Of a DNA stretch of 64,000 nt, positions 38,907 through 48,800 are shown one piece after another. The notes under the pieces are model-generated. The model made no database searches, had not been told where the DNA came from, and saw only the letters and a list, made by a program, of their open reading frames with translations. Positions within the stretch are counted from its first letter, which is position 1; each line of letters begins with the position of its first letter. Made by a program: the position numbers and the translations under genes. The DNA is taken from NCBI GenBank assembly GCA_034717495.1, contig JAYELL010000002.1, forward strand, positions 1 to 64,000, written 5' to 3'. The stretch is from Chloroflexota bacterium. GTDB lineage: Bacteria > Chloroflexota > Anaerolineae > JAAEKA01.

Positions 38907-40091
38907 ATGACCAACATCTTCACCCAGGCGGTTCATGCCGGCGAGGGCGCTTCGGCCCCCAAAGCTACCCCGGTAACAACGCCGATTTACCACAGTGTAG
39001 GATTCGTACACGGTTCGGCCCGGCATATGGACGCCGTTTTTGGTGGCGTTGAGCCCGGTTATGTCTACAGACGCTACGGGAGTCCCACGGTGTCAGCTTT
39101 CGAGAGTGCCATGGCCACGCTGGAGGAGGGAGATGCCGCTTTTGCCACCGCATCGGGCATGGCCGCGGTCCACGCTGCGCTATTGGCTGCCGGTGTGCGT
39201 GCCGGCAGCCACGTTATCGCCGCCAGCGCCTGCTACGGCGCGACCTACGCGCTGCTCAACACGCTGATGGCGGAGCAAGGCACGGTGACCCATTTCATGG
39301 ACATAACCGATCTCGAGCAGATTCGTGCCGTTGCTCAGGAAATAAATCCGGCGGCAATCATCACCGAAACGGTCTCCAACCCGCTTCTCACTGTAGCCGA
39401 TGTGCCAGGTTTGGCCACGATCGCCAAGGGGGTCGGGGCTTCGCTGATCGTCGATAGCACCTTCTCCACGCCCTATCTTTGCCGACCCCTTGACCTTGGC
39501 GCCGATTTCGTCGTTCATTCAGCCAGCAAATATATCGGCGGACACGGTGATGTACTGGCCGGGGTTGTGGTAACCTCGAACGAGAATCGCAGCCGGTTAT
39601 TTGCGATAGAAAAGATGATCGGTGCCGTATTGGCGCCGGAGGTCGCGTGGCTGGCGCTCCGGGGACTCAAGACCCTTGCCCTGCGCATGAGGCAACAATG
39701 TGCCAATGCCCGGGAGATCTCGGCCTGGCTTGTTCAACATCCCGCCGTGAACCATGTACACTATCCCGGTTTAGCGGGCCACGCCCAACATGCATTGGCT
39801 CTCCAGCAGTTCGGCACCCGGGGATTCGGGGCCATGATCGCTTTTGAGTTGAAGGAAGCCACCCGGGAAGCGGCTTTCCGTTTTCTCGACTCGTTGCAGT
39901 TGATCCTTCCCGCCACTACCCTGGGCGACGTCTTCTCACTGGCTCTCTATCCTGTCATGGCAAGCCATCGCGCTGTACCGCCGGAGGCCCGCGCCGAACT
40001 CGGCATCACAGATGGTTTGTTGAGGCTGTCTATTGGAATCGAGGGTGCGGAGGACCTGATGGAGGATCTGAACCGGGCGCTGAGTACCTGA
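38907..40091 (+). CDS. Trans-sulfuration PLP enzyme (Cys/Met metabolism)
   Basis: A 394-residue fold-type I PLP enzyme of the cystathionine gamma-synthase / methionine gamma-lyase family. The PLP lysine is K208 in HSASKYIGGHGD (204-215). The substrate region Y53-R55 in GYVYRRYGSPT and the C-terminal RLSIGIEGAEDLMEDL are typical. Family members cannot be told apart safely by eye; candidates are methionine gamma-lyase, cystathionine gamma-synthase/lyase and O-acetylhomoserine sulfhydrylase. It follows the response regulator by nine bases and may share its transcript. Confidence 0.88.
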   Translation: MTNIFTQAVHAGEGASAPKATPVTTPIYHSVGFVHGSARHMDAVFGGVEPGYVYRRYGSPTVSAFESAMATLEEGDAAFATASGMAAVHAALLAAGVRAGSHVIAASACYGATYALLNTLMAEQGTVTHFMDITDLEQIRAVAQEINPAAIITETVSNPLLTVADVPGLATIAKGVGASLIVDSTFSTPYLCRPLDLGADFVVHSASKYIGGHGDVLAGVVVTSNENRSRLFAIEKMIGAVLAPEVAWLALRGLKTLALRMRQQCANAREISAWLVQHPAVNHVHYPGLAGHAQHALALQQFGTRGFGAMIAFELKEATREAAFRFLDSLQLILPATTLGDVFSLALYPVMASHRAVPPEARAELGITDGLLRLSIGIEGAEDLMEDLNRALST

Positions 40092-40191: not shown

Positions 40192-41745
40192 CTATGCGCC
40201 AGTTTTAGTCTTGGATGGGGGGCGCTGGCGCGAAAGCCAGAACCCTACCCCGCCCAAGATTGCGATGACAGCCAGAGCTGCCAGCCACGGGTTAAAGGAA
40301 ATCCTCATTCCTTCGGAAGAGCCCGCTTCCACCTCACCACTGAGGACTACCGGTGTCGGCAAGGGCACAGGCTCGGGTACGACAACATTCATCTTGAGAG
40401 GTTGTCGGACGCCGGCATCGGCCGAGCTAAGCGAGGTAAACAAGGTAACCTCGTCGGCAGTGTAGCCAAGCGCCTCGAAGTCCATCACACCATCGGCCAC
40501 GTGGCAGTCGGGGCAACTAAGGGCCGCATCACCTCCCGCAGTGCCATGGCTGATCTGGATATAAGTGGTGAGTTCCTTGGGTTCCCAGGACCCACTGTAG
40601 TCCATGTCGGACTGCTCGGCACCGACGAGAATCGCCTTTTCAAGATCACCCTCTGTGAAGAAGGGATCCAACTTCAAGGGAATCGGTATGCCAGAATCTG
40701 CGTCTACTGGTACGATACCTGTGTATTCCTTAAAGGGTTGAATACGAGAGTTTTCGTCGGCGCGATCGCCGGGCCAGGGTTCGTCCGGTTTTGCCATACC
40801 GCCGTCAAACCAGCGGAAAACTACCGGCACCGAATTTGGGGGTTGCACATCGCTGACAGGCGAAAAAAGTTCGGTAATCGGGTCAAAATCTGGTTCGGCT
40901 GTCCAATCACGATGGATCAGACCTCCGGTGCTCTGCACGTGGCAGGCGCGACAGTCCAGACGAAGGTGATTGTTCAGGATCGGATCCCCATGGGGAGTGC
41001 TGGTATGACAGGTATCGCATAAAAGACGATCATCGGGCAGATCGCGGCTGAAAAGCGTCGGTCCGAACCCGGTAACCTTGTGGTTCTCTGATTCATGGCA
41101 GTCCACACAATCGAAACCGGCATCGGCATGATAGTCGCCGACGCTGGTTTCGCCGTGCCTGTCAGCTACGGGAGCGAAGTCGACGCCACGTATTATCAAG
41201 GGGCCACCCTCGACATTCTGGTGGCACAGCAGACAGTTCTGAGAAGGTGGCCGCTGTGCCTGACGGGCGCTCATCAAGGTCTGATCCTGTGTCAGCTTCC
41301 AGTTGCCTTCATCGTCCCTCTCCGGGAACCGCAGACTGGTGTCGTAGGTAGGAGAATGGCAGATCAGACAGTCGATCCCAGCCTTCTCCGCGGCGGTCAC
41401 CTCATCGGGTGGCATGGGTAAACTGCCATCGCCGATATGACAGCGACCACAACCTCCAGGAATGTTCAGCTCCGAATTGAGGATTCCCAACCAGTTGATC
41501 CGCGCGATGGTAGCCGGGATGGGACTGTAGTGATCCATTTTTTCTTCCCACGTGTAGTGGACGGTGTGGATCACGTCGTCGGTAATGCCGGCATGACACA
41601 TCTCACAGGTTTCTGGCCCGTTATACTCTTCGATGTATTTGTGAGGTTCCGGTGCCTGCGCCAGCCCCGAACAGGGTAACAACAATGCGAGCGCCACTGC
41701 GGCGATTACCAGATACAGGATATGGGAACGTGTTGCGACCCTCAT
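40192..41745 (-). CDS. Octahaem c-type cytochrome with C-terminal TM anchor
   Basis: A 517-residue exported cytochrome with signal peptide (cleavage near GLAQA, residue 31) and eight CxxCH haem sites (CEMCH, CGRCH, CLICH, CLLCH, CVDCH, CDTCH, CRACH, CPDCH). A Pro/Val-rich linker and a TM segment near 485-505 tether it to the membrane with the haem domain outside. Eight haems recall octahaem tetrathionate reductase or hydroxylamine-type enzymes, but I see no CxxCK active-site haem or catalytic tyrosine pattern that would settle it. It is the last gene of the minus-strand operon; its ATG overlaps the cytochrome b gene stop by 4 bp. Confidence 0.88.
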   Translation of the reverse strand: MRVATRSHILYLVIAAVALALLLPCSGLAQAPEPHKYIEEYNGPETCEMCHAGITDDVIHTVHYTWEEKMDHYSPIPATIARINWLGILNSELNIPGGCGRCHIGDGSLPMPPDEVTAAEKAGIDCLICHSPTYDTSLRFPERDDEGNWKLTQDQTLMSARQAQRPPSQNCLLCHQNVEGGPLIIRGVDFAPVADRHGETSVGDYHADAGFDCVDCHESENHKVTGFGPTLFSRDLPDDRLLCDTCHTSTPHGDPILNNHLRLDCRACHVQSTGGLIHRDWTAEPDFDPITELFSPVSDVQPPNSVPVVFRWFDGGMAKPDEPWPGDRADENSRIQPFKEYTGIVPVDADSGIPIPLKLDPFFTEGDLEKAILVGAEQSDMDYSGSWEPKELTTYIQISHGTAGGDAALSCPDCHVADGVMDFEALGYTADEVTLFTSLSSADAGVRQPLKMNVVVPEPVPLPTPVVLSGEVEAGSSEGMRISFNPWLAALAVIAILGGVGFWLSRQRPPSKTKTGA

Positions 41746-42824
41746 TGTTCACCTCCCCCGGCCTGGTGACAGGAGAGACATTGATCGTTGGTTCGTCCCT
41801 TATGATCGATCGGCGCCGGCGCGATCAGACCATCCGGGTCGTGACAGAGCAGGCAGTCGCTGTGTTCCGGTCCGACATCATGGGAGCTGATGGTAACTGG
41901 CGCCGGGGTCGGCTGTGGAATCACGGCAGGCGCTTCCGGTGGTGCCGGTCGCTGCGATGCCAGTTCCAGTGTCGGAAGTGGCACAGGCTTATACGCCTCT
42001 TCCTCGGCGGCAATCCGCGGTACTGTGGAGATCGCCGTCGTCTCATCGGTTAGAAACCACCAGGTTGCCAGAAACGATCCGATGATGAAGAGGGTGGCAA
42101 TAGGAGTGTAGATGACCAATCGCCGCCAGCGGGTTTCTGCGTCTGGTGGCTGCCGAACCTCACCAGCCAGGCGTTTTTCCAGCTCGGCGCTGTGTTCCTC
42201 CTTCATGGCCTCTTCGTCGAGGTACCCTGTGAAGATGCTCTTGTTGAACCGGGAGATATGCACGAAGTAGGCATGCCAGGTAAGGATGGTAAGAATTGCC
42301 AGTATCGCCTCAAGTCCATGCGCAATCTTTGCGGCCGGTACAACCTCACCGGAAAGATACTTGGTCGTCGTGATGGGATTCCACAACACGTAGCCGGTGA
42401 CAGTCATCAGGGCTGTACCCCAGATCACACCCCAATACTCCAGTTTTTCCATGAAGTTGTAGCGGGCGTAATCGGGATGTTTCTCGGAGATGTCCAGGTT
42501 ATACTTGATCGCGTCTACGAAGTCGGTGAAGTCTTTCAGGGTCGGGAACATGTCGAGCTCAACGCGCATCACAAAGACGCGATAGCCGACCTGAACAATA
42601 TGGGCAATGGAAACCAGGATGAGCACTACAGCCGATATATGGTGTATCGTGCGCACCTGCTCAATGCCGCCCATGAAACGGATCATGCTCACAGCCCAGC
42701 CAGAATCCGCGTATTTCTGTGGAACGCCTGTCAAGCCAAGAACGGTAAAGGACAACAGCAACAGAAGGTGAAGTATCCTGTCCGACTTGATGAAGCGAAG
42801 GTATTGTCTGCCTTGATCACTCAT
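41742..42824 (-). CDS. Cytochrome b fused to dihaem c tail
   Basis: A 360-residue protein whose first 210 residues hold four TM segments of a dihaem formate-dehydrogenase-gamma or cytochrome b561-like unit. Candidate haem-b ligands are His in RILHLLL (TM1), IHHISAVVL and IAHIVQ (TM2) and AHGLEA/WHAYFVH (TM4). A fifth TM (about 238-258) and a proline-rich linker lead to two CxxCH sites (CLLCH, CLSCH) near the C-terminus. The layout suits quinol oxidation or quinone reduction, passing electrons to or from the soluble multihaem partners. It overlaps both neighbours by ATGA. Confidence 0.88.
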   Translation of the reverse strand: MSDQGRQYLRFIKSDRILHLLLLLSFTVLGLTGVPQKYADSGWAVSMIRFMGGIEQVRTIHHISAVVLILVSIAHIVQVGYRVFVMRVELDMFPTLKDFTDFVDAIKYNLDISEKHPDYARYNFMEKLEYWGVIWGTALMTVTGYVLWNPITTTKYLSGEVVPAAKIAHGLEAILAILTILTWHAYFVHISRFNKSIFTGYLDEEAMKEEHSAELEKRLAGEVRQPPDAETRWRRLVIYTPIATLFIIGSFLATWWFLTDETTAISTVPRIAAEEEAYKPVPLPTLELASQRPAPPEAPAVIPQPTPAPVTISSHDVGPEHSDCLLCHDPDGLIAPAPIDHKGRTNDQCLSCHQAGGGEQ

Positions 42825-43945
42825 GACTCCGCTCCTTTTCGCTCCGCCCGTCGAACTCGAATCCGCTTCTGTGCATCAATTACGATGTACAGGATGAAGA
42901 ACCCAAGTAACGCCGGTATCAGGATGCGATAAAACCAGGTGACGGCAGTGACAAGGGGAAAGGTTTCCCAGTTCGGCCAGTAGTGGCCCAGCCAGCTTTC
43001 TGCAAAGTTGGTATTGGCATCAGGGTGGCATTCCCGACAGGTCTCGACCAGGTTTTCCTGGAGGCCCATGGCAGCTTCAGGATCATCGAGGCTGGCAATG
43101 GCGTGGGTGCCATGACAATCTGTACAGACAGCCTTATTGGTCGGTTGGTCCGGAGAGATCTTGTCGAACAACATAACCGTGGTGCCATGAAAGTCAGCCA
43201 CGTATGTCTCGAAGACCTGGGTTGAGATATCGTGCCGCTCCATCATTTCCTCGTCAGCATGACAGGTGCCACACATCTCCGGCGATTGAAGTCGGAATTC
43301 CAGTGAGCGGGGGTCGGTCGCCGTGTGGGCAGGATGGCAAGAGATACATGATGGCGCATCGGGATCTCCTGCTTCCAGCGCTTCGCCATGCACGCTGCCC
43401 ATGAATTTGTGATGAATGACGCTGTGGCATTTCAGACACATGTCCGATGAGGCGGTTGGCGGAATATCATCGTGCTTTTCGCTGCTGATGGGTTGAATAT
43501 TGTGGCTGCCATGGCAGTCCGCGCAGACAGCCGCCTCTCGCACACCGGAAGCAGCCACCCGGGCATGAACACTGTCTACCTGCTTCAGTGCCTCATCGGA
43601 ATGGCAGTTGGCGCAGCTCTGGCTGTAGTGAATCGTGAGGTCGCGTCGATCCTGGATCACGATCTCACCATGGGGATAGCCTTCGATGTCCGTGTGACAT
43701 TCCTGGCAGCCAAGGCCCGTATGCACGGAACCCTCCAACTCAGCGCCATCCACCGTCACAGGCAATATGTGCCCCGAGGCCAGCTCCATTTCGAGCCCTT
43801 CCTGCTGGTGGCAAACCAGACAGTCCTCATTGCTCTGAGGCGTGGCCTCCTGGGCATTCACAGTAGCAGCCGGAAGCATCACGACGGCCGCCAATACCAA
43901 TGCTGCTGTCGATACCAGCAACAGGAGTTTCCAGCGGTTCGTCAC
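42821..43945 (-). CDS. Nonahaem c-type cytochrome with C-terminal TM anchor
   Basis: A 374-residue cytochrome with N-terminal signal segment (cleavage near VNAQA) and nine CxxCH sites (CLVCH, CQECH, CANCH, CADCH, CLKCH, CISCH, CGTCH, CTDCH, CRECH). A TM segment at about 335-355 ends in a basic tail, so the haem domain is extracytoplasmic. Extra histidines such as GSHN and GTHA near haem sites can serve as distal ligands. It starts at a GTG overlapping the upstream gene stop by four bases. It is a likely electron wire within the complex. Confidence 0.88.
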   Translation of the reverse strand: MTNRWKLLLLVSTAALVLAAVVMLPAATVNAQEATPQSNEDCLVCHQQEGLEMELASGHILPVTVDGAELEGSVHTGLGCQECHTDIEGYPHGEIVIQDRRDLTIHYSQSCANCHSDEALKQVDSVHARVAASGVREAAVCADCHGSHNIQPISSEKHDDIPPTASSDMCLKCHSVIHHKFMGSVHGEALEAGDPDAPSCISCHPAHTATDPRSLEFRLQSPEMCGTCHADEEMMERHDISTQVFETYVADFHGTTVMLFDKISPDQPTNKAVCTDCHGTHAIASLDDPEAAMGLQENLVETCRECHPDANTNFAESWLGHYWPNWETFPLVTAVTWFYRILIPALLGFFILYIVIDAQKRIRVRRAERKGAES

Positions 43946-45042
43946 TCTGACACCTCCGTTCGGGCAGCGGGGATATCGGTGACAATCACGTCCCGGTTGG
44001 CTTGCAGCTCTTCGTCGATCACATCAGATTCCATGAGGAAGAGATCATCCTGGCCGTGACAGTTGTTGCAGCTCTCATTTTGAGGGGTGATGCGCTGCAT
44101 GTTGTGAGGCGTCGTGTACTTCCACGTGGGAACCTCATCGAATTCTGGCAGCAACCCCTCGCCGTAGAAATCAAAGATCTCGCTGGTGGCCGGCACATGT
44201 CGCACCAGAACCCAATCCCATGGGCGGTCTTCGCTCTGAATCGGATTGTGTCCGATCTTGAAGGTCATTTCCGATTCGTCGGTGGTGAAGTATGGAATGT
44301 CCTGCTCATCCCGCCCGGTATGGCAATTGTAGCAGGACTTATACTCGCCCGCCGCATGGCATACCTGGCAGGACACGGTGTTGTTATGAATGGCGTGCTG
44401 CAGATTGCCATCGCCGGGCTCGATATTTTCATGACAGCCTGCCTGGGTACAGGATGGCTTTGGTGCGCCTTCGTAACGCGTGCCGTGGCTAATGTTATGA
44501 TATTCATCCATGGTGTGACACTTGGTGCAGGGCATGCCGGCCTGTTTCCAATGGGCGCTGGCGGGGATACCCTCATGTTTGCCCTTGTATTCATCGGCGA
44601 TACGTGCACCATGGCAGCCACCACAGGTCAGATTGACGTTGGCAACCCGTTTCACCTTATGGCCGGAGATCAGGCCACCATCCAACGCAGATGGACGACT
44701 GATATGACAATCCCCACAATCGGCATGACAGGAGGTACAATGGGTTGTGTAGGCAGTTGCCATCTCCGGAATCGTAAAGTCTGCCCCGCGATCTTTCAGC
44801 ACCTCTTGATAACCGTGCTGCATGCGGTGCTGGCTGTCGCGAACCTGTTCCACAACCCCAACATGGCAGCTGCCGCAGGGTTCATCCGGGCTGGCGCTTA
44901 CCTTGGCGACCAGGCCGTCGTGGGCCTCGTCCTTGTTCAGCGTCTCCGATTGGCCGCCGTGGCAGGCGATACATCCCGGCTCGCTATGGATATCTTCCTC
45001 GAGGAACTCCTGGCTGACCAGAACCTTTTCCCATACCTCCAA
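43942..45042 (-). CDS. Ten-haem cytochrome part, downstream of an in-frame TGA
   Basis: The reading frame carries nine CxxCH sites and one rare CTQAGCH (CX4CH), ten haem sites in 366 residues. As written it would start at a TTG (45042) and lacks any signal peptide, which a c-type cytochrome needs. The frame is open upstream, without a shift, into the ORF at 45061-45402 apart from a single TGA. I therefore read it as the main part of one 11-haem protein whose start lies at 45402. Homologues I recall have Trp at this point, so TGG to TGA is likely. See the companion entry. Confidence 0.7.
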   Translation of the reverse strand: MEVWEKVLVSQEFLEEDIHSEPGCIACHGGQSETLNKDEAHDGLVAKVSASPDEPCGSCHVGVVEQVRDSQHRMQHGYQEVLKDRGADFTIPEMATAYTTHCTSCHADCGDCHISRPSALDGGLISGHKVKRVANVNLTCGGCHGARIADEYKGKHEGIPASAHWKQAGMPCTKCHTMDEYHNISHGTRYEGAPKPSCTQAGCHENIEPGDGNLQHAIHNNTVSCQVCHAAGEYKSCYNCHTGRDEQDIPYFTTDESEMTFKIGHNPIQSEDRPWDWVLVRHVPATSEIFDFYGEGLLPEFDEVPTWKYTTPHNMQRITPQNESCNNCHGQDDLFLMESDVIDEELQANRDVIVTDIPAARTEVSE

Positions 45043-45060
45043 CGGAGGTAATTCTCCCGC

Positions 45061-45402
45061 TCAGCCTTCACCTGAAGCCAGCTCGGAAACCACCTCGATG
45101 GGTTCCTCCGCTAACTGCTGCAGCAGTTCCTTGTTGGTGTGACACGCCACGCAATTGTCGGACGCCGGCGCATCGGCCACCAGGGCCAGCTGTACGGGTT
45201 GTTCCTCGTCCACTGTCTCCCCGGCCGGTGATTGGCTCGTGTCTTTAGCGGGGACAGTGGTCAATTCGAGAGAACTGCCCGTGGACCGGCTCGCCAGCGC
45301 CTGTGACATCGGCGCCGATTGAACCAGCAGGGCCACAAGGGTCACAACCATCAGACCCAATACAATCCACAGCCAGATGGGGCGAAATCTTGCTTGTTTC
45401 AA
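45061..45402 (-). CDS. Signal-anchor and first haem of the interrupted 11-haem cytochrome
   Basis: A 113-residue ORF with a basic start and one TM segment (about 9-28), a linker and one haem site, CVACH, then VVSELASGEG before a TGA. After that codon the same frame continues AGELPPLEVWEKV without a shift into the ten-haem part. The first section supplies the export signal that the second section lacks. It may be a true nonsense mutation, a sequencing error, or a readthrough site. If translation stops here, the product would be a membrane-anchored monohaem protein. Confidence 0.65.
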   Translation of the reverse strand: MKQARFRPIWLWIVLGLMVVTLVALLVQSAPMSQALASRSTGSSLELTTVPAKDTSQSPAGETVDEEQPVQLALVADAPASDNCVACHTNKELLQQLAEEPIEVVSELASGEG

Positions 45403-45432
45403 GGGCTGGCTCCTTACCCGAAAGCGGGAAAC

Positions 45433-45466
45433 GCCTGTCTCGCATCGTGATCGATGCGAGACAGGC
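45433..45466 (-). terminator. Perfect 15-bp hairpin after the rhodanese gene
   Basis: GCCTGTCTCGCATCG, loop TGAT and its exact complement lie between the rhodanese gene and the cytochrome genes downstream on the minus strand. On that strand only GTTTCCC follows, so it may be an attenuator or RNA-stability element that separates expression of the first gene from the rest. Confidence 0.6.
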
Positions 45467-45493
45467 AGAGTCGGTGTCGTTTAGCAACAGTCG

Positions 45494-47548
45494 TTAAGAA
45501 CCAGACTCCGTCGGATAGCCCTGGACGTGGACACCAGGGTTGAAGCGTTTGACAAACACCTCAGGATCATCGGTCCAGCCGCTCATGCCATGCAGCAGCG
45601 AACTGGCATCGTATCCTAACGCATTCAACGCCGACGTAACCTGGCTGGCTGTCTGGCCGGTATAGCAGGCAACCACGATTTCCCGGTCGGTGGGCAGCGA
45701 ATCAAGCACGTCTGGCTGGAACAACTCTTTGGGGCTGTACCAGACAGCGCCGTCGATGTGGCCCTTGTCGTAGTCCTCTTGCGAGCGGACCGAGATGATA
45801 TAGGGATCGTTGTCGGTGTCGCCATCATTGAGATTCTCAAAGAGAGCCTCTGCCGATGTATACCTTGGCCCACCGCCGTCGAAGTAGGCATCACCCGCCG
45901 GTGCAGGCTCGGCTGCCAGCGGTGAAGCAAGATCGAAGGTGCCCTCGGCTTCAAAGGGCTCGGTAACCGTTGCATATCCCATTGGCGTGGCGTCGGGATT
46001 AAAGCGTTTGTTGTAGACCTCGGGATCGTCGCTCCAGCTGCTCATTCCAAACAGCAGATTCTTGGCGTCCAGGCCGGCCGTGTTCAACTGAGAAGTAACG
46101 TGGCTGGCAGTCTGGCCGGTGTAGCAGTAAACCACGATTTCCTGATCGGCAGGCAACGCTGCCAGAGTTTCAGGATTGAGAACATCTTTGGGGCTCATGT
46201 TGACGGCACCAGCGATATGGCCCTTGGCGTAGTCGTCGGGACTGCGCACAGAGATGATGTAGGGGTCATTGCCTTCATCGCCGTCGTTGAGATTCTCGAA
46301 CAACGCCTCGGCAGTAATGTTCTTGGTACCCTGGCTGAAGTAATCCACCGCAGCCACCTGAACCGCGTTGTCGGCCATTCCTGTTTCCGTGGCCTTGTCC
46401 CCGTCGGTTTCCAGTGGGTAGTCAGGCGAGGTTGCAGGATCATAACGCCCGGTCGCCAACACCTCATCGTCTTGCGTCCAGCCCATCATACCATACTTCA
46501 TGTTGACGGTGTCATAACCCAGCACACCGAGCACCGTGTTGGCCAACTGGCCGGTGTGACCGGTATAGCAGTAGGTCACGATCGGCTTGTCAGAGGGCAG
46601 CTTGGCAAGATTCGCCGGATCAGCGATGGTCTTCCAGGGAATGTTGATCGCACCGGGAATGTGACCCAGGGCGTAGTGATCGGGCCCGCGCACCGACACG
46701 ATCACCGGATCGTTGTCGGGATCGCCGTCGTTCAGGTTCTCAAACACAGCATCCGCAGTGATCACCGGTTTCATGCCCTCGGCATTCAGATAGGCATCCA
46801 CCGCAGCTCGCACCACGTCGTCGGGCATATCGGTTTCGATGGCCAGTTCGGGGAAGTCATAGGTCTCGGTCGCCTCGTTGGGCTCCGTCTCCAACGGATA
46901 ATCGGGCGAGGTTGCCGGATCGTAGCGCTTGGTGGCCAGCACCTCATCGTCCTGCGTCCAGCCCATCATGCCGAATTTCAGGTTTATGGTATCATAGCCC
47001 AGCAGGTTGAGTGCCGTCGCCGCCGCCTGGCCCGTGTGGCCGGTATAGCAGTAGGTCACGATTGGCCGGTCGGTGGGCAGCTTGGCCAGGCTCTCCGGCT
47101 TGGCGATGTTCTTCCAGGGAATATTGATCGCGCCAGGAATGTGACCCAAAGCGTAGTGGTCGGGCGAGCGCACTGACACAACAAAGGGATCGTTGTCGGG
47201 ATCGCCGTCGTTCAGGTTCTCGAAGAGGGCATCCGCCGTCATCACCGGCTTGGCGTCCGATGTCACATAGGCCTCGGCGGCAGCCTGGACTGCCTCAAAT
47301 GCACCTGCCTCAGGTTCCGGTTCTGGTTCGGGAGTAGCCGTCGGTGGCACCGGGGTTGCCGTCGGTGGCACCGGAGTTGCAGTTGGCGGTACCGGGGTGT
47401 TTGTCGGTGGCACCGGGGTGTTTGTCGGTGGCACCGGCGTGTTGGTGGGCGGCACAGCTGTGGCCTCAGGTTCAGATGAACCTCCACACCCTGCCAGAAC
47501 AATGAGCAGCAGGACCAGCAGTCCTACTAACAAACGGTGACGAGTCAT
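45494..47548 (-). CDS. Tetra-rhodanese lipoprotein
   Basis: A 684-residue lipoprotein with lipobox LAGC (Cys 21), a linker of [14 protein letters not shown] repeats (30-80) and four rhodanese domains of about 150 residues. Active-site cysteines are at C167, C327, C475 and C628 in YCYTGH, YCYTGH, YCYTGQ and ACYTGQ. Each domain begins with an acidic FENLNDGD and DPDND motif that could bind calcium. Rhodaneses move sulfane sulfur. Domains 1 and 2 are nearly identical in sequence, as are 3 and 4 to a lesser degree, which shows recent duplication. It has AGGAGGAG before its ATG and is the first gene of the cytochrome operon. Confidence 0.9.
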
Positions 47549-47720
47549 TATCTCCTCCTGATCATCGAAAGTTCAACGGAAGCTCCGACATGCTGTTGCA
47601 CTCGAAGGATTGCCGTCTTCGGATTGGAAATCATGGGCATAAGCTGCCAGACATGCGAAAAGATCGCGTGTCCACACACCCACGTACTTCTGATAATACC
47701 CGATCTCTAATAAAAGTTTT

Positions 47721-47762
47721 ATGACATAGATCATGTATTTATATTGGATTTTCTGATATACT
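47721..47762 (+). promoter_or_regulatory. Putative LysR-type binding site and promoter
   Basis: ATGACATAGATCAT (47721-47734) is a 4-bp-armed dyad of T-N11-A type, followed by TATACT at 47757. It lies in the 268-base region between the divergent rhodanese and LysR genes, the usual place for LysR control of both. The intergenic region is AT-rich and holds no ORF. Confidence 0.4.
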
Positions 47763-47816
47763 CTAATTCGAGATGATGATCATAGAGTCAAATGGGTAAG
47801 AAGGGACAGGTCCCCC

Positions 47817-48800
47817 ATGCTAAATCTGGAAAGCCTGCGAGTATTCGTGATGGCAGCAGAAACCGAGAACTTGACGCGAGTGGCCCGCCAGTTGAACATG
47901 AGTCAACCCAGTGTAAGCCAGCACGTGCAGTCGCTGGAACGACACCTGGGAATCGAGCTTTTCGTTCGCCATGGTCGCCGGATTAAACTCAGCCCGGTCG
48001 GGCAGACACTTCTGCCGTTATCGAAAGATCTGTTGCGTTCCAGCAAACAACTGGAGGAGGCAGCCCTTGCCCTGACCGGCGAAGTCTCCGGTCACCTGAC
48101 CATCGGCTGCTCAACTTCCTCCGGAAAATACGTGCTGCCCCACCTTCTGGCCCGTTACAGAGAGGAGTTCCCTTTGGTTCGGGGCACAGTGAAAGTCGGC
48201 CACAGATCCCGAGTCATCGAGTGGCTGCTGGCTGGCGAAGTTGACCTGGCCGTGACCAGCGAACGCGTCAATCGAGGCGGACTCCACCATCGTCTCTTCT
48301 TCGAGGATGAGATCGTTCTGGTCGTGCCAGGCAATCACGAATGGGCCGATCGGGAATCCATCAATCCCAACGAGCTGTACCACGAACGATTCATCCTGCG
48401 GGAACCAGACTCAGGAACACACTCTGCCCTGGTGGAGGGCTTGGATCAAGCAGGCATAGACATCGAACGGATGGAATGTGTACTCGTCCTCGACAACTCG
48501 GAAGCCATCATCATGACGGTCGAGGAAGGGTTTGGGCTTGGGTTCGTTTCCAAAGTCACAGCGGAGCGCGGCGTCGCCTGGGGCAGTATCAAGGCCCTTG
48601 CACTGAAGGGAATCAGTATGAAACGCTGGCTGCACATGGTCGACAATGACAGAACTCCCCATTCGCCGGCGCTCAATGCCTTCACGATGTTCGTCGATGG
48701 ACTGGAGGGGGCAGCCTCCAGCGTGCGCACCGGACGGCTGACAGTTCTGCCCGACCCGCCGCCCTCCCATACCGTGGTTGCGCCTGCCTGCACAGACTGA
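47817..48800 (+). CDS. LysR-family transcriptional regulator
   Basis: A 327-residue LTTR with the N-terminal winged helix (MLNLESLRVFVMAAETENLT; MSQPSVSQHVQSLERHLG) and a periplasmic-binding-fold effector domain (GHLTIGCSTSSGKYVLPHLL onward). The resemblance to CysB/CbbR-type regulators is general. It is divergent from the rhodanese-cytochrome operon, so I infer that it controls it, perhaps in response to a sulfur or redox signal. Confidence 0.9.
   Translation: MLNLESLRVFVMAAETENLTRVARQLNMSQPSVSQHVQSLERHLGIELFVRHGRRIKLSPVGQTLLPLSKDLLRSSKQLEEAALALTGEVSGHLTIGCSTSSGKYVLPHLLARYREEFPLVRGTVKVGHRSRVIEWLLAGEVDLAVTSERVNRGGLHHRLFFEDEIVLVVPGNHEWADRESINPNELYHERFILREPDSGTHSALVEGLDQAGIDIERMECVLVLDNSEAIIMTVEEGFGLGFVSKVTAERGVAWGSIKALALKGISMKRWLHMVDNDRTPHSPALNAFTMFVDGLEGAASSVRTGRLTVLPDPPPSHTVVAPACTD

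Follow-up and report, generated by a model that had tools for sequence, protein, structure and literature searches.

A predicted selenocysteine-containing multihaem cytochrome and its tandem-rhodanese partner in Chloroflexota

The closest known system to the locus described here is the extHIJKLMNOPQS cluster of Geobacter sulfurreducens, which combines a rhodanese lipoprotein, a selenocysteine (Sec)-containing cytochrome, more multihaem cytochromes, a cytochrome b and a divergent LysR-type regulator (PMC6148476, PMC5877670). Loss of extI impairs selenite and tellurite reduction in Geobacter (PMC5877670, PMC6148476), and the extHIJKL mutants display some Fe/Mn phenotypes (PMC6148476). A 2026 review of selenoproteomes names ExtKL and a protein of the octahaem tetrathionate reductase (OTR) family that contains Sec, and under its cytochrome or haem terms we found no family matching the cytochrome presented below; no published description of it was found in the open-licence literature, and no curated family for it either.

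In this work, we analysed a window of 64,000 nucleotides from a Chloroflexota contig (JAYELL010000002.1), for which an operon of multihaem cytochromes led by a rhodanese lipoprotein had been proposed. The original prediction knew of no named system with such a combination, thereby overlooking the Geobacter ext cluster (PMC6148476, PMC5877670). Common to both are a rhodanese lipoprotein (ExtH in ext) beside a multihaem cytochrome gene with an in-frame TGA predicted to encode Sec, as well as further multihaem cytochromes, a b-type cytochrome and a divergent LysR gene.

Operon layout and haem content

The five genes, designated E to A in their order of reading, were confirmed on the minus strand as the one-direction operon of the original prediction, with its coordinates and strand. 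Gene E (47548-45494, minus) encodes a lipoprotein of 684 aa with the lipobox LAGC, a Pro/Thr-rich linker and four Rhodanese domains (Pfam E-value 3.9e-68), in agreement with the four-domain sulfurtransferase first proposed; of its five cysteines, one takes the lipid and four belong to the active sites (CYTGHT/CYTGQT). After a gap of 91 nt follows D (45402-43942, minus), which, read through its TGA, would yield a selenocytochrome of 486 aa with 11 haem motifs. The remaining genes are C (43945-42821, minus), encoding a nine-haem cytochrome c with a signal peptide and a C-terminal transmembrane (TM) helix; B (42824-41742, minus), a cytochrome b561/FdnI-like membrane subunit with a C-terminal tail of two CXXCH motifs; and A (41745-40192, minus), an eight-haem cytochrome c of the OTR superfamily with a C-terminal TM anchor. 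The cytochrome genes are coupled by the 4-nt overlaps already noted in the original prediction (43942-43945, 42821-42824 and 41742-41745), and a divergent LysR-type regulator gene, F (47817-48800, plus), adjoins the module here and in many relatives.

Haem motifs amount to 10 CXXCH and one CX4CH in D, nine in C, two in B and eight in A, that is, 29 CXXCH plus one CX4CH; since the CX4CH of D is CXXCH in relatives, the 30 haem sites originally counted are right. B matched Ni_hydr_CYTB (PF01292; E-value 2.1e-12) and scored 61 bits against TIGR01583, under the cut-off. The match to a b-type family bears out that much of the earlier label of dihaem cytochrome b, and the two b haems are the part that we infer.

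Between E and D lies a 15-bp perfect inverted repeat with a 4-nt loop (45433-45466, minus), a possible attenuator or processing site, which gave no terminator call and no Rfam family; the repeat carries no strong T-run and may set the ratio of E to D expression. Comparison with plasmids returned no match. Convergent with the operon, a PLP-dependent cystathionine/methionine gamma-lyase-like gene occupies positions 38907-40091 (plus), and a 68% identical copy stands at the equivalent position in a genome of the same family.

The in-frame TGA of D and its hairpin

The TGA at 45063-45061 separates two ORFs of one frame (45402-45061 and 45042-43942, minus), and had been read originally as an in-frame stop splitting them. 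From the comparisons below we regard it as close to certain that this TGA is a Sec codon, and the two ORFs almost certainly form one selenocytochrome of roughly 11 haems. D begins at a TTG preceded by AAGGAG and has an N-terminal membrane anchor, with one haem motif before the predicted Sec and 10 after it. The Sec would be residue 114, within the motif SGEG-U-AGELPPLEVW, in a loop rich in Gly that separates haems 1 and 2; no resolving Cys is present next to it.

Three public Chloroflexota contigs (L009, L010 and L011; 53-56% identity to the joined D) carry a stop at the identical residue, with the motif GEG-stop-AGELPPLEVW conserved on both sides. A homologue search through 400 genomes of the phylum and 396 of the class recovered about 70 more full-length D homologues, almost all of them interrupted by a single internal TGA; judged by its homologues, the predicted D family is widespread in Chloroflexota. 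The stop at site 114 was present in 68 of the 74 Chloroflexota loci read and was TGA in all 68, never TAA or TAG; alignments of D relatives further displayed conserved protein immediately on either side of it. Elsewhere in the operon, TGA acts as an ordinary stop codon that overlaps the start of the following gene. Among the D homologues none has Cys at the Sec site, the replacements being W, L, H or a degenerate motif; such replacements are unusual for a catalytic Sec, yet they are consistent with a Sec that would be useless without its partner. A simple pattern detected a lipobox-like motif in 40 of 66 D proteins, and the rest mostly carry either a membrane anchor or a rhodanese fusion.

Ten nt after the UGA, a spacing that is constant among the relatives, stands at 45034-45050 (minus) a bSECIS-type hairpin, TACCTCC-GTT-GGAGGTA, with a seven-pair stem and a three-base loop (z -3.45). 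Of 63 distinct sequences, 62 have G as the opening base of the loop, and the stem shows two-sided changes at three pairs (for example TACCTCC/GGAGGTA, TGCCTCC/GGAGGCA, TGGCTCC/GGAGCCA and TGCCTCA/TGAGGCA), with the encoded amino acids changing along with the stem (P to A, V to P). Across 14 sequences, 95.9% of cells were paired, vs 36-50% for slid partners, and the hairpin has decayed in older non-Sec forms of D. At two Sec-containing loci (L101 and L130) the standard hairpin is missing (3 of 7 pairs), and these may use a different bSECIS.

That the TGA is an ordinary stop between two coupled genes, the second starting from a TTG eight codons on, draws on a TTG and a GGGAG at about the right place for restart; we reject it as extremely improbable, given that the stretch from TGA to TTG is conserved at the protein level, that TGA is used exclusively at this site (68 of 68), that the hairpin covaries, that two rhodanese-cytochrome fusion genes (L036 and L094) run through the codon, and that restart downstream would produce a haem-binding sequence without the signal peptide which haem attachment needs.

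The genome that holds the window encodes a tRNA-Sec (71.1 bits), SelB (349 bits) and SelA (567 bits), and its SelD match reached 94.5 bits, under the cut-off of 125 bits. SelB is weak as a discriminator, since it occurs in 314 of the 396 genomes of the class. The D tree requires at least four losses of Sec, and because the genomes with a Sec-lacking D retain tRNA-Sec, Sec was lost at the D locus and not together with the machinery. An AlphaFold prediction of D from four sequences gave a pLDDT of 34 and was left unused, and neither D nor C had a useful sequence match in the PDB.

Coupling to the rhodanese and conservation of the module

Rhodanese genes near D were sought with an HMM built from the four rhodanese domains of the window, within 6 kb and at loci with enough context. 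By this measure a rhodanese, normally encoded by the adjacent gene on the same strand, accompanies D at 62 of 63 Sec-containing loci vs none of four non-Sec loci (Fisher p 6.5e-6, the loci not being independent). Sec was lost together with the rhodanese in four of four independent phylogenetic pairs, a number that cannot reach significance. One genus offers a close comparison: one of its genomes (G420) has the order 13-haem gene, E, D with Sec, and a second one (G447), with flanks about 85% identical, lacks precisely the 1.2 kb that hold E, and its D carries TGG in place of the TGA. No protein of the E family was found elsewhere in G447, nor in G435, G442 and G466.

The exception among Sec-containing loci (L047) has no adjacent rhodanese, and a fused copy (L036) occurs elsewhere in the same genome. 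Fusion of a rhodanese domain upstream of the cytochrome is seen in two lineages (L036/L010 and L094), and since both gene orders, E-D and D-E, are found, the adjacency has been kept despite rearrangement. The active-site Cys is retained in 158 of 161 rhodanese domains of the relatives. As far as gene neighbourhoods indicate, the near-constant partner of D is a multi-domain rhodanese lipoprotein. A second tandem-rhodanese protein, 39% identical, is encoded in the same genome as the window (contig C60:43994-44923, minus).

The order E-D-C-B-A recurs in distant metagenome-assembled genomes at about 45-69% identity, far beyond chance, so that the neighbours are conserved together as the original prediction expected. 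The full order occurs in one family (f9, including L009 and L011) and partly in a second one (f15). In the family of the window, two genomes keep D-C-B-A without Sec; one of them (G466) has no E beside these genes, and the contig of the other (G442) stops at D. Elsewhere, most families carry D and E alone, in either order and often with a LysR gene next door (36-48% identity among the LysR proteins adjoining D/E in relatives), from which the core is the selenocytochrome plus the rhodanese, with or without LysR. It is this invariant pair, often with LysR, rather than the five-gene set originally taken as the unit, that recurs; judged by gene content, C-B-A is a clade-specific add-on that would supply a quinone link through B (PF01292).

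Some relatives depart from this layout. At three loci (L084, L116 and L083) the D homologues have grown to 640-860 aa and contain 16-21 haem motifs, and L084 holds, in one cluster, a Sec-containing copy with a rhodanese and a long non-Sec copy. Furthermore, a cytochrome of 300-380 aa with 10-13 haems, distantly related to D, is located upstream of the module at five loci (L097, L082, L114, L098 and L121); it occurs in several families and is present even after rhodanese loss.

Proposed function and rival explanations

The original prediction proposed a quinone-linked conduit for sulfur compounds. Its b-type cytochrome is present and, owing to the tight coupling with a rhodanese whose active sites are intact, the sulfur link is likely. 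Our overall model, in which the selenocytochrome and the rhodanese exchange sulfur while haem electrons pass to or from quinone, has in our estimate a probability of about 0.55. D and E would both be tethered on the outer face of the cytoplasmic membrane, where the rhodanese domains would load sulfane sulfur (polysulfide, S0 or thiosulfate-derived) as a Cys persulfide and hand it to Sec, giving a Se-S adduct that electrons straight from the haem chain would reduce, with release of HS-. In the clade of the window, C with its nine haems and the cytochrome b of B would connect this haem wire to the quinone pool, the eight-haem A may serve as a further electron-transfer or terminal module, and the divergent LysR F probably controls the module. 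Transfer of persulfide to Sec would account for a Sec that is useless without the rhodanese, for the lack of a resolving Cys, and for the export and membrane tethering of both proteins. More tentatively, and with somewhat less than even confidence, the module may represent a new type of respiratory enzyme: a multihaem wire bearing a Sec, at which sulfane sulfur would be exchanged with a tandem rhodanese dedicated to this task, the sulfur chemistry falling to selenium and the haems standing in for the usual resolving cysteine or molybdenum cofactor.

Among the other functions considered, the one that survives best, unlikely as we hold it, is reduction of selenite, tellurite or a metal by a Chloroflexota counterpart of Geobacter ext, with the rhodanese carrying perselenide or guiding oxyanions and the Sec cytochrome reducing them. 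The ingredients shared with ext and the impaired selenite and tellurite reduction after extI loss (PMC5877670, PMC6148476) speak for it. Conversely, the curated ExtKL model (NF040886, cut-off 250 bits) gave no match to D at E<=10 for four members or at E<=0.01 for eight members, on which basis we rejected D as an ExtKL member, and nothing above the cut-off was found in 400 Chloroflexota genomes. Further, no ORF for an ExtI porin or an ExtO Rieske protein was found within 40192-48800, and selenite as the physiological acceptor hardly explains conservation over tens of families. Matches of ExtM/N/O models to some D members were discarded as weak multihaem cross-matches far under the cut-off. A 610-aa ORF with no internal stop elsewhere in the genome of the window (contig C52:21177-22205, minus) scored a weak 43.5 bits against the ExtKL model.

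The Se-S adduct could alternatively form in the reverse direction, in the oxidation of sulfide or thiosulfate, with electrons running into quinone or a terminal oxidase. The steps are reversible in principle and the octahaem A could be the electron outlet; we consider this direction rather unlikely, and weakly favour sulfur reduction, as respiration or as electron disposal. It appears improbable that the module serves extracellular electron transfer or metal respiration and that its rhodanese has given up sulfurtransferase work to act as a redox lipoprotein at the surface: a multihaem chain with a quinone-type cytochrome b and the Fe/Mn phenotypes of the Geobacter extHIJKL mutants (PMC6148476) would agree with it, yet the rhodanese keeps its active-site Cys and is tied to Sec, D and E stand alone in many lineages, and no beta-barrel gene of a porin-cytochrome outer-membrane conduit was found in the operon. 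As regards a haem-wired selenium peroxidase or thiol-redox stress protein, which we hold to be very unlikely, Sec is common in peroxide and thiol chemistry, and D has no peroxidase-like family match and no CxxU/UxxC motif, the coupling to a rhodanese pointing instead to sulfane sulfur.

Returning to the exchange of sulfane sulfur between rhodanese and Sec, the joint loss of the two provides a direct, testable link of the Sec residue to a sulfurtransferase. Taken together, our results suggest an undescribed selenium-based respiration of sulfur compounds in poorly known Chloroflexota and, if true, a selenoprotein family not described so far, from a large phylum whose members are mostly uncultured; annotation would have missed this family as a result of gene callers dividing the gene in two at the UGA.

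Comparison with known systems

Protein A aligns with OTR (1SP3, E-value 1e-24; TIGR04315, 153.6 bits with a cut-off of 375) along its haem arrangement and, unlike OTR, is membrane-anchored at its C-terminus. The OTR residue Cys64 is Gly in 14 of 14 A proteins, Asp150 is replaced, and Lys153 is missing in five of the 14, including that of the window, which has Ile. A function as tetrathionate reductase was rejected on these grounds, the catalytic residues not being conserved and the score lying under the family cut-off. For E, the closest PDB sequence is the four-domain thiosulfate sulfurtransferase 1YT8 (1.3e-9), likewise a tandem rhodanese; E differs from it as an exported lipoprotein tied to a cytochrome operon. 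B and C probably resemble quinone-linked modules (b/multihaem-c) of the CbcL/FdnI type in pairing a b-type membrane subunit with a nine-haem c protein; in contrast to these modules, the subunits here are separate and B has its own two-haem tail.

With regard to ext, Sec would be placed between haems 1 and 2 of 11 in D, whereas in ExtKL it follows a pentahaem part and precedes a small C-terminal one. The ExtI porin, ExtJ and the Rieske protein ExtO belong to ext only, the module being without all three, and conversely the cytochrome b here is b561/FdnI-like and the rhodanese has one to six domains and is sometimes fused to the cytochrome, both unlike ext. If our reading is true, the Chloroflexota module would stand with Geobacter ext as a second pairing of a Sec cytochrome with a rhodanese, built on a different cytochrome, and two such pairings would point to a general chemistry of selenium and sulfane sulfur on a haem wire.
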